Part shown: one piece after another, positions 13,308 through 36,087 of the stretch
How positions within the stretch are numbered: the first letter of the stretch is position 1
How the letters are laid out: the number at the start of each line of letters is the position of its first letter
Assembly (NCBI GenBank): GCA_008081395.1
Contig: VMCJ01000069.1
Span: forward strand, 1 to 36,087
Direction of reading: 5' to 3'
Origin: Rhodospirillales bacterium
Lineage (GTDB): Bacteria > Pseudomonadota > Alphaproteobacteria > Bin95
DNA: 36,087 bases
The notes under the pieces: model-generated
The model's database searches: none
What the model was told of the DNA's origin: nothing
Seen by the model: only the letters and a program-made list of their open reading frames with translations
Program-made: the position numbers and the translations under genes

Positions 13308-14276
13308 TCAATAAAAAAGTGTCTTAGGATCCATACCCGAATACAGGCCAGCAACCTCTTCCGCATAACCGTTATAAAGCAAGGTGGGAATTCTCTCATC
13401 TTGACCAAGGGGTTTTTCGGTTGCTTGGCTCCACCGGGGGTGATCTACATTTGGATTAACATTCGCATAAAAGCCATATTCTCGGCTTTGAAGTTGTTCC
13501 CAAAAGCTCTTTGGCTGTTTGTCTGTGAAGGTAAACTGGACAATCGATTTGATTGACTTGAAGCCATACTTCCAAGGTATTGCCAAGCGCAAAGGTGCTC
13601 CCATCTGTTTAACCAGAGGCTTTCCATAAATCCCTGTAACTATGAATGCTAGGTCATTAGTTGCTTCGTCGAGCCGCAAACCCTCGAGGTAGGGCCAAGG
13701 ATACCAACGTTGTCGTTGACCTCTAGCAACATCTGGTTTTGTAAAACATCGCATTTCTAGAAACTTCGCTCCAGCTTGGGGCTGAGCTAGTTTGACCAAC
13801 TCTCTGAGTGGAAAACCGCTCCATGGGACGGCCATCGACCACGCCTCTACACATCGGTGACGGTAGAGCCGCTCTTCTATGGGCATTCTCCGAATTAGAT
13901 CTTCTGCATCAAGCTCTATGGGATTGGAAACCATACCGTCGATTTTAACTAACCACGGCTTTACTGATAGTTTCTGAGCTCGTTGCCAAATATCTTTGTG
14001 AGATCCAAATTCGTAAAAGTTATTGTAAGTTAACACGTCACTGCGCGGTGACAGTTTGCGATCGAGAGAATATGTCAGGTTCTGTTTTGCAGGGTACAAC
14101 TCGGTCGCAACGTCAGGGCTATCATTAAAGTTAGCGGCACGGGCATTAGACGGCATACCAGCGGCTAGAATTCCAATTCCAGTAGTCCCTAGGAGTTGGC
14201 GCCTACTCATAAATATCGTTTCGGGCGTAGCGTCGCGTTCGGGAATTGCCCATCGAGGGGTTTGGCGAATGAGCAT
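13308..14276 (-). CDS. msrP: Protein-methionine-sulfoxide reductase, catalytic subunit (molybdoenzyme)
   Basis: MsrP (formerly YedY) is a periplasmic molybdopterin enzyme that repairs oxidised methionine in envelope proteins. The 322-residue product begins MLIRQTPRWAIPERDATPE and carries a twin-arginine signal around SRRQLLG (residues 24-30), with likely cleavage after A47. The molybdenum-ligating cysteine is C142 in RHRCVEAWSMAVPW. Further family segments are MGAPLRLAIPWKYGFKSIKSI and the C-terminal LYNGYAEEVAGLY. The ATG at 14276 is chosen because AAGGAG lies 8 bases upstream; an in-frame ATG 18 codons earlier is inconsistent with the family N-terminus. The usual haem membrane partner MsrQ is not adjacent. 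Confidence 0.93.
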   Translation of the reverse strand: MLIRQTPRWAIPERDATPETIFMSRRQLLGTTGIGILAAGMPSNARAANFNDSPDVATELYPAKQNLTYSLDRKLSPRSDVLTYNNFYEFGSHKDIWQRAQKLSVKPWLVKIDGMVSNPIELDAEDLIRRMPIEERLYRHRCVEAWSMAVPWSGFPLRELVKLAQPQAGAKFLEMRCFTKPDVARGQRQRWYPWPYLEGLRLDEATNDLAFIVTGIYGKPLVKQMGAPLRLAIPWKYGFKSIKSIVQFTFTDKQPKSFWEQLQSREYGFYANVNPNVDHPRWSQATEKPLGQDERIPTLLYNGYAEEVAGLYSGMDPKTLFY

Positions 14277-14369
14277 ACGAATGGCTCCTTGAGATTGCTT
14301 CTTTGATAAGATTCTAGGAAGGTTCTCCATGAAAGGCCAACAGTTGGAAAAAAATTAGAGGATCCAGAC

Positions 14370-15179
14370 ATGAGCCCCAACACAGATAAGGTAGCAGTGG
14401 AAATTGATTCTAAAGGCGTTGCTTGGGTAACTCTTAATGAACCAGCTGTCAGAAATGCACTATCTCCAGAGCTGCGGGCACAGTTTTGCGAGCGTATTCC
14501 GCAGCTAGAATTTAATTCCGCAGTGCGCTGCGTGGTTTTGCAGGGGGCAGGTGATCATTTTATGGCTGGTGGAGACATCCGGGTAATGAAAGAACGCTTG
14601 GAGTGGTCCAAGGAGGAGAGATCACAGCGCATCATTGCGGGCCTCCATGATATCAATCACGCAATATTCGCCCTTCGCCGAATGCCAAAGCCTGTAATTG
14701 CAAGTGTTAGAGGCGCAGCGGCTGGATTTGGCTTAAGCTTGGTTGGCGCTGCAGACTTGGCGATTGCGGCAGAAGATGCATTTTTCACCCTTGCCTACTG
14801 TCATATTGGCGCAAGTCCTGATGGTGGAGCTTCTTACTTTTTAGGCCGAACGCTCGGAATGAAACAGCAGATGGAGTTAGCTTTTCTTGGTGAGCGCTTT
14901 GAGGCTCACAAGGCTAAAGAGTTAGGCATTGTGAACTGGGTGGTGCCATCCGTCGATTTGAAATTTGAAACAGAGAAACTTGCTTCTCGACTTGCAAGTG
15001 GTCCTACACGTGCATACGCCAATGCCAAGGCTCTGTTCAATGCAAGCAACCATCTGTCTATGGAAAGTCATCTACAGATGGAGGCAGAGAGGATAGCTGA
15101 CAGCATGGCCTCTGAGGATCATGCAGAGGGAGTTAGCGCATTTTTGGGGAAGCGAAAGGCTAATTTTAAAGGAAAGTAA
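14370..15179 (+). CDS. Enoyl-CoA hydratase/isomerase (crotonase family)
   Basis: The 269-residue product has the crotonase fold signatures. The first oxyanion-hole segment is HFMAGGDIRVM at about 64-73. The second is ASVRGAAAGFGLSLVGAADLAIA at 111-133. The active-site region GASPDGG places D151 at one catalytic carboxylate position. A GxxPDGG pattern with Asp rather than Glu is common in isomerase-like members such as PaaG, so this may be an isomerase rather than a hydratase. AGAGGA about 7 bases upstream supports the start. It is divergent from msrP and convergent with the selenoprotein gene. The acyl-CoA substrate is unknown. Confidence 0.85.
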   Translation: MSPNTDKVAVEIDSKGVAWVTLNEPAVRNALSPELRAQFCERIPQLEFNSAVRCVVLQGAGDHFMAGGDIRVMKERLEWSKEERSQRIIAGLHDINHAIFALRRMPKPVIASVRGAAAGFGLSLVGAADLAIAAEDAFFTLAYCHIGASPDGGASYFLGRTLGMKQQMELAFLGERFEAHKAKELGIVNWVVPSVDLKFETEKLASRLASGPTRAYANAKALFNASNHLSMESHLQMEAERIADSMASEDHAEGVSAFLGKRKANFKGK

Positions 15180-15303: not shown

Positions 15304-16527
15304 TTATTTGTTAATTATGACTTCCGCAACGTGCGGCACTGTTAAACGCTTTATAACAAAATCAAGCTTGGGATCCTTTCCACCACCAATTTTGCGGATC
15401 GCAAGCAGAGTTTGTCCCGCTTCAGTTTCATTCCAAAACCATGAGTTGATTTCTGCCGTATTGCCAACTGCTCCTGGCTGAGCGTTAGCCGCTTCCTGAT
15501 AAAAAGTTAGAAGGTCGTTCACGCCCAACTTAAAAGTATTTGCAGTTTCGCTACCAGGCAAAAGCGCCCCAGGCTCGTGTCCATCGGCAAAGCTTCCAAA
15601 GAAGTCTGCAAGTTTTTCGGGTTCTAACCCAGTTAACCCAAATCCTGTTCTGCCATGCTTGCGCTTCCACGCTTCATGCCATGGAACAAGAAGTGATACC
15701 TCCGCAGCTAGCCTTGTTGCATGGGTGTCATGGTCGCTGACTGAAGGGCTATTAAAGCTAACAGGACATACCCAGTTTTCATCATAGTTGGATATGTTGT
15801 TGTCTGGTGGTGCATCTTCAGGAAAGTCATTGAGAACTGGAGTTGCTTGGTTTCCAAGAAGCTTTAGTGCAGCTTTAATGACTCGGCGTTGAAACCTCGA
15901 GTCTTCTGGAGCACCTAACGGCCGGCCCAGCTCAAATGGCACCCAAAGTGCGCGTGGAGGGCGAATTTTTTCAGCATGCGGCTTTACAAGCGCGATGAGG
16001 GTTGTTGGTAACCCAGCAGCCTCCAGTTGATGAGCAATTGCGCACACGGCGCGAGTGCAATTTGGTCAAACAGGTAAAAGTAAAACAGCGTCGACTTTTT
16101 CTTGCTTCATCGACTTGGCAATCATATCGATCCCAGGCTTCATCGTTTCAGGATCAGAAGCGCCCATAAAGCTGTAATGGTGATCAGCAACTGTGCCGAT
16201 CGTGCCGTCTTCGGCCATCTCGCGAAGCCGCTCCAGAGGAAGAACAACATTCCAATCGCGCTGATACCCGGTTCTATCGTAATTTACGGAGATGTGGCTC
16301 ATGACGATATCATCAGCTTCAGCATTTCCAGGAATTATCCTGTAATCTGCCGCTCCCATACCAAATGGGCTTTCTCCGCGCATAGATAGGCCTGCCGTGG
16401 AGATAAGTGCGACACGACGTTCTGAAAGGGAGGGGCCGTTTGCAGATGGAGTGTCTTCAAATACCGGTAACGGTAAGGTTTCGACGTGCTGCCTTAGTGC
16501 CTCCGGCATATCGGATAGTCGAGCCAT
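15304..16527 (-). CDS. GrdB-like selenoprotein (glycine/D-proline reductase B family) with in-frame UGA = Sec154
   Basis: One reading frame runs from the ATG at 16525-16527 to the TAA at 15304, interrupted only by a UGA at 16066-16068. The frame is continuous on both sides. The residues around the stop, LLLPV-[UGA]-PNCTRAVCAIAHQLEAAGLPTT, match the active-site pattern U-x-x-C of the GrdB/PrdB family followed by a helix. The first half has family sequence (IVMSHISVNYDRTGYQRDW, TVADHHYSFMGASDP), and the second half has another family segment (PFELGRPLGAP). Read through, the protein is 407 residues with Sec154. GGGGA about 8 bases upstream of the ATG supports the start; an upstream TTG is less likely. 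Known family members reduce glycine, sarcosine, betaine or D-proline via a selenol, but those need partner subunits absent here. Most likely a genuine selenoprotein; a sequencing error or pseudogene is the alternative. Confidence 0.88.
16034..16058 (-). promoter_or_regulatory. Bacterial SECIS-like hairpin downstream of the UGA
   Basis: Starting 8 nt after the UGA, the RNA can fold as GCA, two mismatches around one T-A pair, then GCGC paired with GCGC around a 5-base loop CGTGT, returning to TGC. The apical loop begins 17 nt past the UGA and has G at its second position. Both features agree with the published bacterial SECIS consensus for spacing and loop G. It lies inside the coding sequence, as bacterial SECIS elements do, and would recruit SelB. 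Folding energy was not calculated. Confidence 0.6.
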
Positions 16528-16712
16528 TTGCTTATTCCCCCGCAATTTTCTGATAGCTGTATTGCAAAAACTACATACCGCCTCTGCGTGTGCTGGGCAG
16601 CCTAAATTATTGCGTAAAGCGACCGTATTCCGTTAGTTTAGAGATCAGCGCGCTAAATTTATAGAAACGCGTGTTGATAAAATTTCATGCGTTAAGTTAG
16701 GGGACTGATTAA

Positions 16713-17693
16713 ATGAAAGTGAACGCGTTCGTCTTCGAGAAACCTGGTGCTGCTGGTGTTATGAAATGGCGTACCCTTGAGCTAGGTGATCCTGGTCCTG
16801 GCGAAGCATTAGTGCGTCACACCGCTATCGGTCTGAATTACATTGATATTTATCATCGTTCTGGGCTCTATCCGCTGCAGTTTCCAAGCGGTCTCGGTCT
16901 CGAGGCGGCTGGAGTCGTTGAGGCCGTTGGTAAGGGCGTAACTCACGTAAAAAAAGGCGACCGCGTAGCTTATGGGACGGGAACGCTAGGAGCCTATTCT
17001 GAAGCCAGAATAATGCCAGCTCAGCACCTTTTGAAATTGCCAAATGGCATTTCTGATGAAGAAGGTGCTGCCATGATGCTGAAGGGGATGACTGTAGAGT
17101 ACCTCTTTAATCGGACTTACAAGGTTAAAAAGGATGAGTGGGTATTGTTCCAAGCCGCAGCTGGAGGAGTTGGTCTTATCGCTGGTCAGTGGTTGGCTGC
17201 AGTTGGGGCTCATGGGATTGGCACTGCCGGTGGCCCCAAAAAGGTGAAACTCGCCAAGGAGCATGGCTTTGAGCAAGTTATCGATTACAAGAAAACGCAA
17301 AATATTGCTGACCGAGTAAAGAAGATAACGAAGGGTGCAGGAGTGCCGGTCGTTTTTGATAGTGTGGGTAAAGATACTTGGGCGCAATCGCTGAATAGCT
17401 TAGCCCCGCGCGGGCTGATGGTCAGTTTCGGTAATGCTTCTGGTCCTGTGCCAGAGTTTGGTCTTGGGGAACTCGCAAGTCGAGGGTCTTTGTACGTTAC
17501 CCGACCATCTCTTGTGGCTTATACCTCTACTCGCCAGGAGCTCGAAAAATCAGCAAGAGCTCTCTTCAAGATGGTAACATCAGGTGCAGTAAAAATTGAA
17601 GTGAACCAGACTTATCCATTGAAAGAAGCACCACAAGCTCACCGTGATTTGGAAGGTCGTAAAACAACTGGTTCGACCATCTTCATACCGTAG
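16713..17693 (+). CDS. qor: NADPH:quinone oxidoreductase (zeta-crystallin type)
   Basis: The 326-residue product is a medium-chain dehydrogenase/reductase of the quinone-reductase branch, lacking the zinc-ligand pattern of alcohol dehydrogenases. It starts with MKVNAFVFEKPGAAGVMKW and contains NYIDIYHRSGLYPLQFPSGLGLEAAGVV. The NADPH-binding motif AAAGGVG lies near residues 149-155, and the signature VVFDSVGKDTW near 210. The C-terminal ATP-like GRKTTGSTI segment is also typical. It probably reduces quinones or enones with NADPH. AGGGGA about 9 bases upstream of the ATG supports the start. It is divergent from the selenoprotein gene and ends in a strong hairpin. Confidence 0.93.
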   Translation: MKVNAFVFEKPGAAGVMKWRTLELGDPGPGEALVRHTAIGLNYIDIYHRSGLYPLQFPSGLGLEAAGVVEAVGKGVTHVKKGDRVAYGTGTLGAYSEARIMPAQHLLKLPNGISDEEGAAMMLKGMTVEYLFNRTYKVKKDEWVLFQAAAGGVGLIAGQWLAAVGAHGIGTAGGPKKVKLAKEHGFEQVIDYKKTQNIADRVKKITKGAGVPVVFDSVGKDTWAQSLNSLAPRGLMVSFGNASGPVPEFGLGELASRGSLYVTRPSLVAYTSTRQELEKSARALFKMVTSGAVKIEVNQTYPLKEAPQAHRDLEGRKTTGSTIFIP

Positions 17694-33091: not shown

Positions 33092-34471
33092 TTGGTTAGT
33101 GTATTACTGAACTCTGCCCGAAATTCTTTGCCTCTTGATGTTGTAGAAACGTCGCAATTTTCAATCTGGTGCGATGCTCTGCCCAAGAATTCGCTAACTT
33201 GGGTCGAAGCATCTGGTTTTACGGCCAGAGCAGGTGAGACGGTTTTGTTGCCTGACTCGAGTGGTTTGCCTGCCTCTGCAGCACTTGGTGTTTCCAGTTT
33301 AGATGATGTGTGGGCTTTTGGAGATGCAGGATTAAAATTACCACCAATACGACCCTATAAAATTCGAACTAAGCTATCAAAGCTACAAGCAACCAATGCT
33401 GCTATTTCCTGGGCTCTGGGAGCATATAAATTTGACCGTTACAAAACGAAAGGTGGTCACAAAGTTGCCCAGGTGATCTGGCCAAAGGGCGCAGATAAAA
33501 CCCTCGCTGAGTCGGTTATTGATGGTGTTTCCCACGCTAGAGATCTTATCTCCACTCCCGCTAATGAGATGGGACCAAAGGAATTGGCTGCCGCTGCTCG
33601 AAAGATTGGCCGCCAGCACCGGGCAAAGATCTCAGTAATTGTGGGCGATGATCTTTTAAAAAAGAATTTTCCGACAATCCATGCCGTTGGACGTGCAAGC
33701 TCTCGCGCACCGAGATTAATAGATATGACTTGGGGCAATCCAAGAGCGCCCAAAGTCACCCTTATCGGTAAGGGTGTATGTTTTGATACTGGAGGCCTTG
33801 ATCTTAAGCCGTCGGGCGCAATGCTTAACATGAAAAAGGATATGGGGGGAGCTGGTAACGTATTGGGGCTTGCCCACTCAATTATGGCGACGAAGCTTAA
33901 TATTCGTCTTCGAGTACTTATTCCGGCAGTAGAGAATAGTGTATCAGGCGACGCGTTTCGGCCGCTTGACGTTATCAAGACCCGAAAGGGTATCACGGTT
34001 GAAATTGGTAATACCGATGCCGAAGGACGCCTTGTGCTTTGCGACGCGATAGCCCTCGCCGTGGAAGAAAGCCCAGATCTCGTTATCGATTGCGCAACGC
34101 TGACTGGAGCGGCGCGCGTTGCACTCGGGCCAAGTTTGCCTGCCCTTTTCTGCAACAATGATGTTCTTGCCGCTGATATTCTTAGGGGTGGTTTAGAGAC
34201 AGATGACCAATTTTGGCGTTTACCTCTCCATCAGCCGTACAAAAGCATGTTGAAGGGCGAAGTGGCTGACTTAAATAATGTTTCGTCAGGTGGGTTTGCC
34301 GGAGCCATCACTGCAGCATTGTACCTGCAGGCTTTTATTGAGGACACGGTCCCATGGGCACATATCGATATGATGGCTTGGAATCCAACAGGTAGACCTG
34401 GTCGTCCCAAAGGAGGTGAAGCTCAAGGTTTGCGAGCGTTATTGTCCATGCTTCAAAAGCGTTATTGCTGA
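33092..34471 (+). CDS. M17 leucyl aminopeptidase family protein
   Basis: This cytosolic zinc/manganese aminopeptidase removes N-terminal residues from peptides. The catalytic C-terminal domain shows the ligand segment IGKGVCFDTGGLDLKPSGAM, the MKKDMGGAGNVLGLA stretch, and the family signature NTDAEGRL (residues 307-314). The chain is about 459 residues. This is shorter than PepA, as in the second alphaproteobacterial M17 type. No ATG is available near the 5' end. A TTG at 33092 lies 9 bases after AAAGGA and is preferred over a TTG at 33086, which is only 3 bases from it. The gene overlaps convergent SURF1 by 10 bases. Confidence 0.9.
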   Translation: MVSVLLNSARNSLPLDVVETSQFSIWCDALPKNSLTWVEASGFTARAGETVLLPDSSGLPASAALGVSSLDDVWAFGDAGLKLPPIRPYKIRTKLSKLQATNAAISWALGAYKFDRYKTKGGHKVAQVIWPKGADKTLAESVIDGVSHARDLISTPANEMGPKELAAAARKIGRQHRAKISVIVGDDLLKKNFPTIHAVGRASSRAPRLIDMTWGNPRAPKVTLIGKGVCFDTGGLDLKPSGAMLNMKKDMGGAGNVLGLAHSIMATKLNIRLRVLIPAVENSVSGDAFRPLDVIKTRKGITVEIGNTDAEGRLVLCDAIALAVEESPDLVIDCATLTGAARVALGPSLPALFCNNDVLAADILRGGLETDDQFWRLPLHQPYKSMLKGEVADLNNVSSGGFAGAITAALYLQAFIEDTVPWAHIDMMAWNPTGRPGRPKGGEAQGLRALLSMLQKRYC

Positions 34472-35124
34472 CCTTTTCGATGAACTAGTACTGCAATAAC
34501 TAACCACGCAATAGCTAAACCAAACCAAGTGAATGAATATTGCAGATGATTATCTGGAATATTCGGTTTTGCTTGTCGGCCAGTTAAACCCTCAGGAGGG
34601 TTGGTCAAACGAAGAATTAAAGAGGATACCTGGGTATCGTTGAGACCGGCTGTTCGGGTTAATGCAATTGGATCAATCCAATACCAGTCTTCAGGGGGTT
34701 GGTTATCAGGGGTGAAAGTGGAAGGCTTTCTAGCTGGAATTAAAACACCCTCAATTATAGTAGTGGTTTGAGGAAGAGAGATTCCTTTGATCTCATTATC
34801 TGACCATCCCAATTCAACAGCAATGATTCCTCCATCCTTCAAGCGAAAAGGTGCCGCATATACCCTGCCAACCTTCCCAGCTGATGTAGTTGGAAAAACA
34901 CGTATTAGATGACCAATTACCCATGAGCCATCAGCTAGGACTGGGCGCCAGGAAAAAGTGCTGTCGGGAATTTTTTCAATTGTAACAGGAGGTGATGCCA
35001 GACCGGCATTAATTTCTGCCAGCATGTTTTGTTTCCATGCACGCCTCTCCCACTGCCAAACCCCGAGTCCTGTAAGAATTAGGAACCCCACTATCGATAC
35101 CACGATAAATAATTGCCTCTTCAT
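34462..35124 (-). CDS. SURF1 family cytochrome oxidase assembly protein
   Basis: The 220-residue product has an N-terminal membrane segment (IVVSIVGFLILTGLGVW) followed by the SURF1 signature GVWQWERRAWKQNML, and a C-terminal membrane segment in HLQYSFTWFGLAIAWLVIAVLV. SURF1 helps insert haem a into subunit I of cytochrome c oxidase. The ATG at 35124 is chosen because the DUF983 stop ends at 35129, four bases away; an upstream TTG would overlap that gene. It is last in the cox3-DUF983-SURF1 unit. Confidence 0.9.
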   Translation of the reverse strand: MKRQLFIVVSIVGFLILTGLGVWQWERRAWKQNMLAEINAGLASPPVTIEKIPDSTFSWRPVLADGSWVIGHLIRVFPTTSAGKVGRVYAAPFRLKDGGIIAVELGWSDNEIKGISLPQTTTIIEGVLIPARKPSTFTPDNQPPEDWYWIDPIALTRTAGLNDTQVSSLILRLTNPPEGLTGRQAKPNIPDNHLQYSFTWFGLAIAWLVIAVLVHRKGQQ

Positions 35125-35128
35125 CGGC

Positions 35129-35446
35129 TTAGAGGGCAGTTGACCGACGTCGATATTGTATGTCGACAAATTTGGCTTTTAGCGGCCTTAGTAAGGCTAA
35201 CGTTAGGCCGATGACCACTATGGGCCAGATTAAAAAATGAAGCCAATAAGGTGGCTCAAAAAGTGCCTCTAAACTAAGAGCGCCAATGACTGAAAGAGCG
35301 CCAACAATGAAGATTACAAAGATAGCGGGACCATCTCCTGCATCATGAGCGCGCAAGTCCAGTCCGCATGAAGGGCATTCTGGGTTTACGTCTAGCAACC
35401 CAGAGAACAATGCACCTTGTCGGCAGCGTGGGCACCGGGCACTCAC
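35129..35446 (-). CDS. DUF983 protein of the cytochrome oxidase cluster
   Basis: The 105-residue product has an N-terminal zinc-ribbon-like pair, CPRCRQG and CPSCGLD, then two hydrophobic segments (FVIFIVGALSVIGALSL and LHFLIWPIVVIGLTLALL). This is the DUF983 layout, found near cox genes in alphaproteobacteria; the exact function is not settled. It starts at GTG, with a purine-rich GAGCAAGA just upstream. The cox3 stop is 6 bases away, so the genes are co-transcribed. Confidence 0.85.
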   Translation of the reverse strand: MSARCPRCRQGALFSGLLDVNPECPSCGLDLRAHDAGDGPAIFVIFIVGALSVIGALSLEALFEPPYWLHFLIWPIVVIGLTLALLRPLKAKFVDIQYRRRSTAL

Positions 35447-35452
35447 TCTTGC

Positions 35453-36087
35453 TCAGCCACCCCAAACGTAAACGCAAGCAAACAAAAACAGCCATACAAC
35501 GTCAACGAAATGCCAATACCATGCGGCAGCTTCAAAGCCAAAATGATGGTCAGATTTGAAGTGTCCATTCATACCGCGGAATAGACAGACCGCTAGAAAG
35601 ATGGTGCCGATAATAACATGGAAACCATGAAAACCGGTCGCCAGGAAAAAGGTTGAAGGATAAATTCCATCACGGAAGCCAAACGCTGCATGGCTATACT
35701 CATAAGCCTGCAATATTGAGAAGAAGAGCCCCAGAAGAACTGTTATTGTTAAGCCTAAGATAAAATCTTTGCGATTGTTGTGCAGAAGAGCGTGATGCGC
35801 CCATGTGACGGTGCAGCCTGAAAGCAACAATATTAGCGTATTGAGCAGTGGAAGATCTAAGGCATCAAATGTTTGTATGCCCTCTGGAGGCCACGTAAAG
35901 CCAGTTGCTGCTTTTGGAAAAAGGCTCGCATCAAAGAAGGCCCAGAAAAACGCCGCAAAAAACATCACTTCCGATGCAATGAAGAGGACCATGCCATATC
36001 GAAGCCCTATCTGGACTGTTTTGGTATGATGCCCTTGATGTTCGCCTTCTCGAACGACATCGCGCCACCAGCCAAACATCACGCCTA
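35453..36087 (-). CDS. ctaE: Cytochrome c oxidase subunit III, C-terminal part, cut by window edge
   Basis: The frame is open to the right edge, giving 210 residues that lack the first membrane helices of subunit III. It has [16 protein letters not shown], then [22 protein letters not shown] with the conserved glutamate, [10 protein letters not shown], and the C-terminal [20 protein letters not shown] and [21 protein letters not shown]. Subunit III stabilises the aa3-type oxidase. The in-frame ATG at 36079 is internal because the conserved [15 protein letters not shown] motif lies deep in full-length proteins. It is first of the visible cox3-DUF983-SURF1 genes. Confidence 0.95.

Follow-up and report, generated by a model that had tools for sequence, protein, structure and literature searches.

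The gene studied here lies on the minus strand at 15304..16527 of the window, by which we mean the whole 36,087-nucleotide stretch of DNA that was analyzed. The window belongs to a draft genome of 2.57 Mb (G000; 96% complete, 176 contigs). Translation of the window gave a single 407-codon frame running from 16527 to 15304 (−), the sole interruption of which is a UGA at 16066..16068. The frame begins with an ATG at 16527, upstream of which direct reading finds a probable ribosome-binding site (GGGGGA, 16536..16541 (−)), and it ends with a TAA stop at 15304-15306. When the TGA is read as selenocysteine (Sec, U), the product contains the stretch ...DAVLLLPVUPNCTRAVCA..., and the recoded residue is Sec154 in the motif V-U-P-N-C-T-R-A-V. 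The frame, its coordinates, the position of the UGA, the residue number, and the length of 407 amino acids are exactly those given by a first-pass annotation of this DNA. Just two sites in the 36-kb window have a lone stop codon flanked on each side by an in-frame stretch of 100 codons or more, and the second of these (30511) is an ordinary junction between a Ham1-like gene and a HemN gene.

We compared the UGA column across homologues drawn from seven loci of a species-level genome collection and from related genomes, each read codon by codon. Twenty genes share the long form of about 405 amino acids (two are cut by contig ends), and all 20 have TGA at the same place, within a VUPxCTRAV motif that reads TCAV at its end in one gene. 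Because both the UGA and the frame on either side of it recur in these 20 long homologues, the broken frame is far beyond what chance would produce. Short paralogues of about 300 amino acids carry TGA at the column in 11 cases, with the motif UPVCHQT (UPLDHQT in two), and two TGA-carrying short paralogues accompany the long gene in its own genome. Another 16 short homologues have Cys at the Sec column; short forms from other lineages read CPVCHQT or CPICHQS. The column thus holds Sec or Cys and nothing else in the aligned homologues, which bears out the first-pass proposal that the UGA occupies the catalytic Sec position of the GrdB/PrdB family. Sec and Cys members are intermixed inside the short clade of the tree, and none of the long-clade homologues read has Cys at the column.

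Several individual homologues depart from this pattern in their own ways. The only copy in one genome (G084) has Cys at the column, and this genome is without selA; the idea that it decodes UAG as Sec was rejected, since its UAG sits elsewhere and the Sec column is Cys. In the two short selenoproteins that read UPLDHQT (L054 and L055), Asp replaces the Cys that completes the UxxC pair, and Sec there may act with no resolving Cys. Another genome (G047) has a long homologue in which, in addition to the UGA, the conserved Trp283 position of the C-terminal domain is occupied by a UAG (L044:2341); this homologue is a pseudogene, a sequencing error, or a truncated protein.

Substitution patterns were assessed by the NG86 method against a relative of 72% identity. 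Before the UGA dN is 0.13 with dS saturated, and after it dN/dS is 0.26/1.35; by this comparison, purifying selection acts on both halves of the gene. These data bear on the simplest alternative, that the UGA is a nonsense mutation, a sequencing error, or the mark of a pseudogene. The contig does come from a fragmented draft genome, and gene callers do split the frame. However, the same UGA recurs across 20 homologues of the long form and 11 short paralogues, frame and selection are kept on both sides of it, and the genome carries a complete Sec machinery together with the conserved recoding hairpin described below. As judged from sequence, this alternative is refuted by the comparative data, and we give it practically no weight.

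All components of selenium incorporation that the first-pass annotation had suggested searching for are present in the genome. We found a tRNA-Sec with a UCA anticodon (71.5 bits, above the family cut-off), selA (522 bits) next to selB (438 bits), and an Ndh-SelD gene, in which selD is joined to an NADH-dehydrogenase-like domain (L075:3198-5366(+)). Neither of the two outcomes that had been named as refuting a selenoprotein, namely the absence of all selenium-pathway genes or homologues with a different residue at the column and conserved frame breaks, was observed. The Ndh-SelD fusion, a type already known from marine metagenomes (PMC2398784), is the sole protein in the genome above the selD cut-off (TIGR00476, 282 bits), and it scores 490 bits against the model 'fusion_not_SelD' (TIGR04369), for which the cut-off is 700.

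Across 95 related genomes, selA scored above cut-off in 17 of the 20 genomes with a UGA-containing homologue versus 5 of the 75 without one (Fisher p = 1e-11), and the association holds outside the window's own family (p = 6e-5). The three UGA carriers without selA are drafts of 83%, 97%, and 77% completeness, the 97% one being in 730 contigs. In three genomes from families other than the window's own, the link is also physical. An Ndh-SelD fusion lies about 86 bp upstream of the long gene in G080, where the contig also carries selA; in G047 a convergent Ndh-SelD is about 150 bp away and selA about 4.6 kb off; and in G066 the distance to selA is 2.2 kb. Taken together, the sequence data make it almost certain that the UGA is decoded as Sec.

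Immediately after the UGA we identified a SECIS-like hairpin at 16038..16054 (−), spanning bases +12 to +28 and consisting of a 6-bp stem and a C-G-U-G-U loop at 16048-16044. It lies just 3' of the UGA and carries a G in its apical loop, as expected of a SECIS hairpin, and is weak by single-sequence energy. Pair 13-27 is mismatched in the window's own copy, the folding energy of which is not unusual (z = -0.25); the support for this hairpin is comparative. Bases +18 to +21 are CGUG in 31/31 UGA forms versus 1/16 Cys homologues. Pairs 15-25, 16-24, and 17-23 form in every one of the 31 UGA forms; among the 16 Cys homologues, the two closing pairs form in 4 and 3. Among 25 distinct sequences, 95.3% of the alignment cells in the stem pair, compared with a shuffled mean of 70.9, and two-sided (compensatory) changes occur at five of the six stem pairs. 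The covariation score of 0.703 (shuffled, 0.256; reached in 0/500 shuffles; maximum for a slid window, 0.184) partly reflects the two clades, in which the stem is CGCGC/GCGCG (long) or CAGAC/GUCUG (short), and the hairpin positions also encode conserved amino acids. Since the GUG codon is invariant and the loop is lost in Cys forms, the RNA itself appears to be selected.

The same GUG codon enters into another reading, in which the UGA would act as a regulatory switch: the functional product would in part be the 153-residue fragment, with the full-length protein made only with selenium, or the GTG at 16047 would start a separate protein. Every Sec gene depends on selenium supply, and a downstream GTG-started open reading frame of 247 amino acids does exist. 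Against this, the Sec/Cys column is conserved as the probable active site, the short-form Cys homologues read straight through it, and the GTG belongs to the loop of the conserved hairpin, which is the reason for its invariance in UGA forms. We therefore regard a switch or a separate protein as improbable, and return to a single Sec-containing protein of 407 residues.

Residues 1 to about 233 (15829..16527 (−)) form a PrdB/GrdB-like catalytic domain, as supported by TIGR04483, by PF07355, and by an alpha/beta fold in an AlphaFold model (pLDDT 81.9, pTM 0.81). The best-matching family is TIGR04483 (PrdB), over residues 33-225 with an E value of 2e-32; its 112.5 bits fall short of the cut-off of 300. 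PF07355 (Pfam GRDB) scores 36.8 bits, above its gathering cut-off of 22, and matches 25 of the 25 family members scanned (E <= 1). Models for glycine, sarcosine, and betaine reductases score 51-67 bits, under their cut-offs. The protein is closer to PrdB than to the GrdB of the first-pass label, and it is a proper member of neither. In the model, Sec154 is placed between a strand (147-151) and a helix (155-170), i.e., at the helix start. Many residues beyond UxxC are invariant as well (H78, N82, D84, R85, H117, and R159). Five Firmicutes PrdB genes, four of them annotated prdB, read UGTCHR at the aligned column. In both the alignment and the model, Sec154 pairs with Cys157 in a UxxC arrangement like that of PrdB, and a redox role for Sec and Cys is probable.

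The remainder of the protein, from about residue 255 to 407 (15307..15765 (−)), is a C-terminal domain of no known family, with about 140 residues helical; the AlphaFold model is all-helical from residue 269 to the C-terminus. It is conserved at W283, AQPG, and WFW, and a conserved C254-P stands just before it. Searched alone, the C-terminal part matched nothing in Pfam or in the PDB. A PDB sequence search with the protein and two profiles returned no credible match, and Foldseek against the PDB returned nothing below an E value of 0.01, with low TM-scores, and so gave no lead as to function. Across the 95 genomes, clearly significant matches to this domain came only from the PrdB-like fusion. 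The long form (support 100/99) and PrdB (100/100) are separate groups in the tree, the deeper order of which is unsure, with long branches. Judged by its sequence, the long form is a clade of its own, marked by U-P-x-C-T-R and the C-terminal helical domain. We conclude that, very probably, this is a genuine selenoprotein of PrdB-like type, representing a distinct long form and neither a proline nor a glycine reductase.

A contrary reading is that the protein is a true subunit of a D-proline- or glycine-type reductase acting with a pyruvoyl partner. Its Sec column and UxxC pattern are those of genuine PrdB (UGTCHR), the TIGR04483 match is strong by E value, and Pfam GRDB is above cut-off. However, PF09338, which covers the pyruvoyl partners PrdA and GrdE, was found in none of 95 genomes (the window's own and 94 relatives), although in positive controls that search recovers PrdA (90 bits) and GrdE-type proteins (675 bits); these controls were plasmid records with genuine prd/grd genes from Enterococcus raffinosus and Peptoclostridium acidaminophilum. 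GrdA, found in the control, is likewise absent from the window's own genome. The TIGR04483 score far below cut-off, the separate clades with 100% support, and the extra domain also stand against this reading. We consider it highly improbable and, barring a very distant pyruvoyl partner, already refuted.

These results agree with the first-pass statement that an anaerobic amino-acid reductase cluster is lacking, as neither PrdA/GrdE nor GrdA was found. That annotation also named a cytochrome oxidase unit as a neighbor. SURF1 and COX3 do occur in the window (34462-36082) but lie about 18 kb from the selenoprotein gene, and so are not its neighbors. COX1 is found elsewhere in the genome. A haem-copper oxidase is thus encoded, and describing the organism as apparently aerobic is reasonable, if not proven. 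Because the reductase partners are absent while COX1, SURF1, and COX3 are present, a Stickland-type role is very unlikely.

The closest neighbors are of a different kind. Divergent from the selenoprotein gene is a Qor-type NADPH:quinone reductase of the MDR family (16713..17693 (+)), which scores 395.8 bits against PRK10754, above cut-off; its assignment as an acrylyl-CoA reductase of the AcuI type, with 71-89 bits, was rejected. Convergent with the selenoprotein gene is a crotonase of the enoyl-CoA hydratase/isomerase family (14370..15179 (+); PF00378, 170 bits). We consider Qor a conserved partner, as it is divergent from the long gene in 9/9 genomes with flanks read (genera g1 and g2), across a gap of 68 to about 197 bp. 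Crotonase, near the long gene in 7/9 genomes, is a probable partner; it directly follows Qor in 5/5 g2 genomes and lies on the opposite side in the window and in one other genome (G002). This arrangement did not recur at the remaining long members inspected, and there was no neighborhood common to every long member. The Qor/crotonase neighborhood may therefore be lineage-specific, belonging to two genera of one family, and Qor and crotonase are themselves broad protein families, which counts against functional inference from them. Downstream of one long paralogue are genes for an AMP-binding CoA ligase and a short-chain dehydrogenase.

Other genes were seen beside members of the wider family. 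A CaiB-type CoA transferase lies directly 3' of short genes at L072:3-1954(−) (contig C55 of the window's own genome) and at L049, L081-L086, L088, L090, and L091; this pair is conserved with Sec in the window's own genome and with Cys in several others. Another contig of that genome (C24) encodes a second PrdB-like selenoprotein of the short form (UPVCHQT; L073:9432-10304(−)), divergent from egtB and egtD of ergothioneine biosynthesis (L073:10393-12596(+)), a pairing not seen at the other loci compared. In the window itself, the catalytic subunit of an MsrP-type methionine sulfoxide reductase is encoded near the selenoprotein gene (13308-14330(−)).

Qor and crotonase at this locus, and the CoA ligases and CoA transferases near members of the wider family, suggest CoA-linked small-molecule metabolism as the common thread of these neighbors. 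From these considerations we can sketch how the enzyme might work. SelB would deliver Sec-tRNA to the UGA, aided by the downstream hairpin for which there is comparative support. A small substrate would then be attacked by the selenolate at an activated carbon adjoining a carbonyl or unsaturated group, its leaving group would depart, and the resulting Se-S bond would be re-reduced by cellular thiols. By analogy, this chemistry would be the PrdB/GrdB-type reductive step carried out without a pyruvoyl subunit; activation of the substrate would therefore have to take another route, perhaps through a CoA thioester, or an enone or quinone (a conjugated carbonyl), rather than through a pyruvoyl Schiff base. 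The added helical domain would probably close the active site or replace the missing partner. A place for the enzyme in a small catabolic or detoxifying CoA-linked pathway with reductive cleavage is possible but doubtful. We put forward with slightly greater, still tentative, confidence that the long form could be a new type of selenoenzyme of oxygen-respiring bacteria, combining PrdB-type chemistry without a pyruvoyl partner, a helical domain of its own, a CoA-linked or quinone-like substrate, and a Sec that is never swapped for Cys.

We also considered whether the protein could be a general thiol/selenol disulfide reductase or a peroxide-protecting enzyme rather than one catalyzing substrate-specific reductive cleavage. 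It has a UxxC pair, thiol-redox proteins are many among marine selenoproteins (PMC2398784), and the Qor neighbor suits stress or quinone chemistry. However, the domain is of the PrdB type rather than thioredoxin, the many residues listed above are invariant besides UxxC, and CoA metabolism is indicated by the neighbors and by other members of the family. A general redox role is in our view unlikely.

PrdB-type proteins are among the most counted selenoproteins of the surface sea, where a role in D-proline fermentation makes little sense. The PrdB-type UxxC family was the third most abundant selenoprotein family in Sargasso Sea data in 2005, with 42 genes (PMC1088965), and 235 PrdB-type selenoproteins were counted in Global Ocean Sampling (GOS) data in 2008 (PMC2398784). 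A selenoprotein of this class in such a bacterium is thus less of a surprise than the first-pass annotation supposed, and Sec in a PrdB-type protein is expected from earlier work. A 2026 review lists PrdB simply as D-proline reductase (PMC13188914). The label is probably wrong for at least some of these proteins, because the required partner proteins are absent. The long clade, its private domain, the lack of partners, and the gene neighbors appear undescribed in the searchable literature, which includes few subscription journals. The conserved Qor and crotonase neighbors and the private C-terminal domain offer handles for finding the real substrate of an enzyme that standard-code gene calling splits at the UGA and thereby loses.

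Among known systems, the protein most resembles PrdB (TIGR04483): the catalytic domains are homologous, and the Sec column and the UxxC pair are shared. It differs in its motif (UPxCTR here, UGTCHR in PrdB), its length (407 versus about 240 amino acids), the lack of PrdA, the Qor and crotonase neighbors in place of a prd cluster, and its separate clade with 100% support. In the protein B subunits of glycine, sarcosine, and betaine reductases (GrdB/GrdF/GrdH; PF07355), it is the second half of GrdB that aligns with residues 16-226, including the Sec; the first ~200 residues of GrdB are missing here, GrdE and GrdA are lacking, and scores are well under the NCBIfam cut-offs. The "proline reductase PrdB" of the Sargasso Sea and GOS surveys (PMC1088965, PMC2398784) comprises PrdB-type UxxC selenoproteins of surface seawater, and the window gene would probably be counted there. 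The available portions of both surveys give counts and describe no PrdB fusion or long form, gene neighbors, or absence of partners; the fusions described for GOS concern the Prx, Prx-like, UGSC, and SelD families (PMC2398784). FarB/FarE, a GrdB-like pair proposed to reduce fluoroacetate, belongs to an anaerobe and acts with a GrdE-type partner, in which it differs from the protein described here (PMC10838667). Like our proposal, however, it would pair a GrdB-type Sec protein with a non-amine substrate, and it indicates that GrdB relatives may act on non-amines (PMC10838667).
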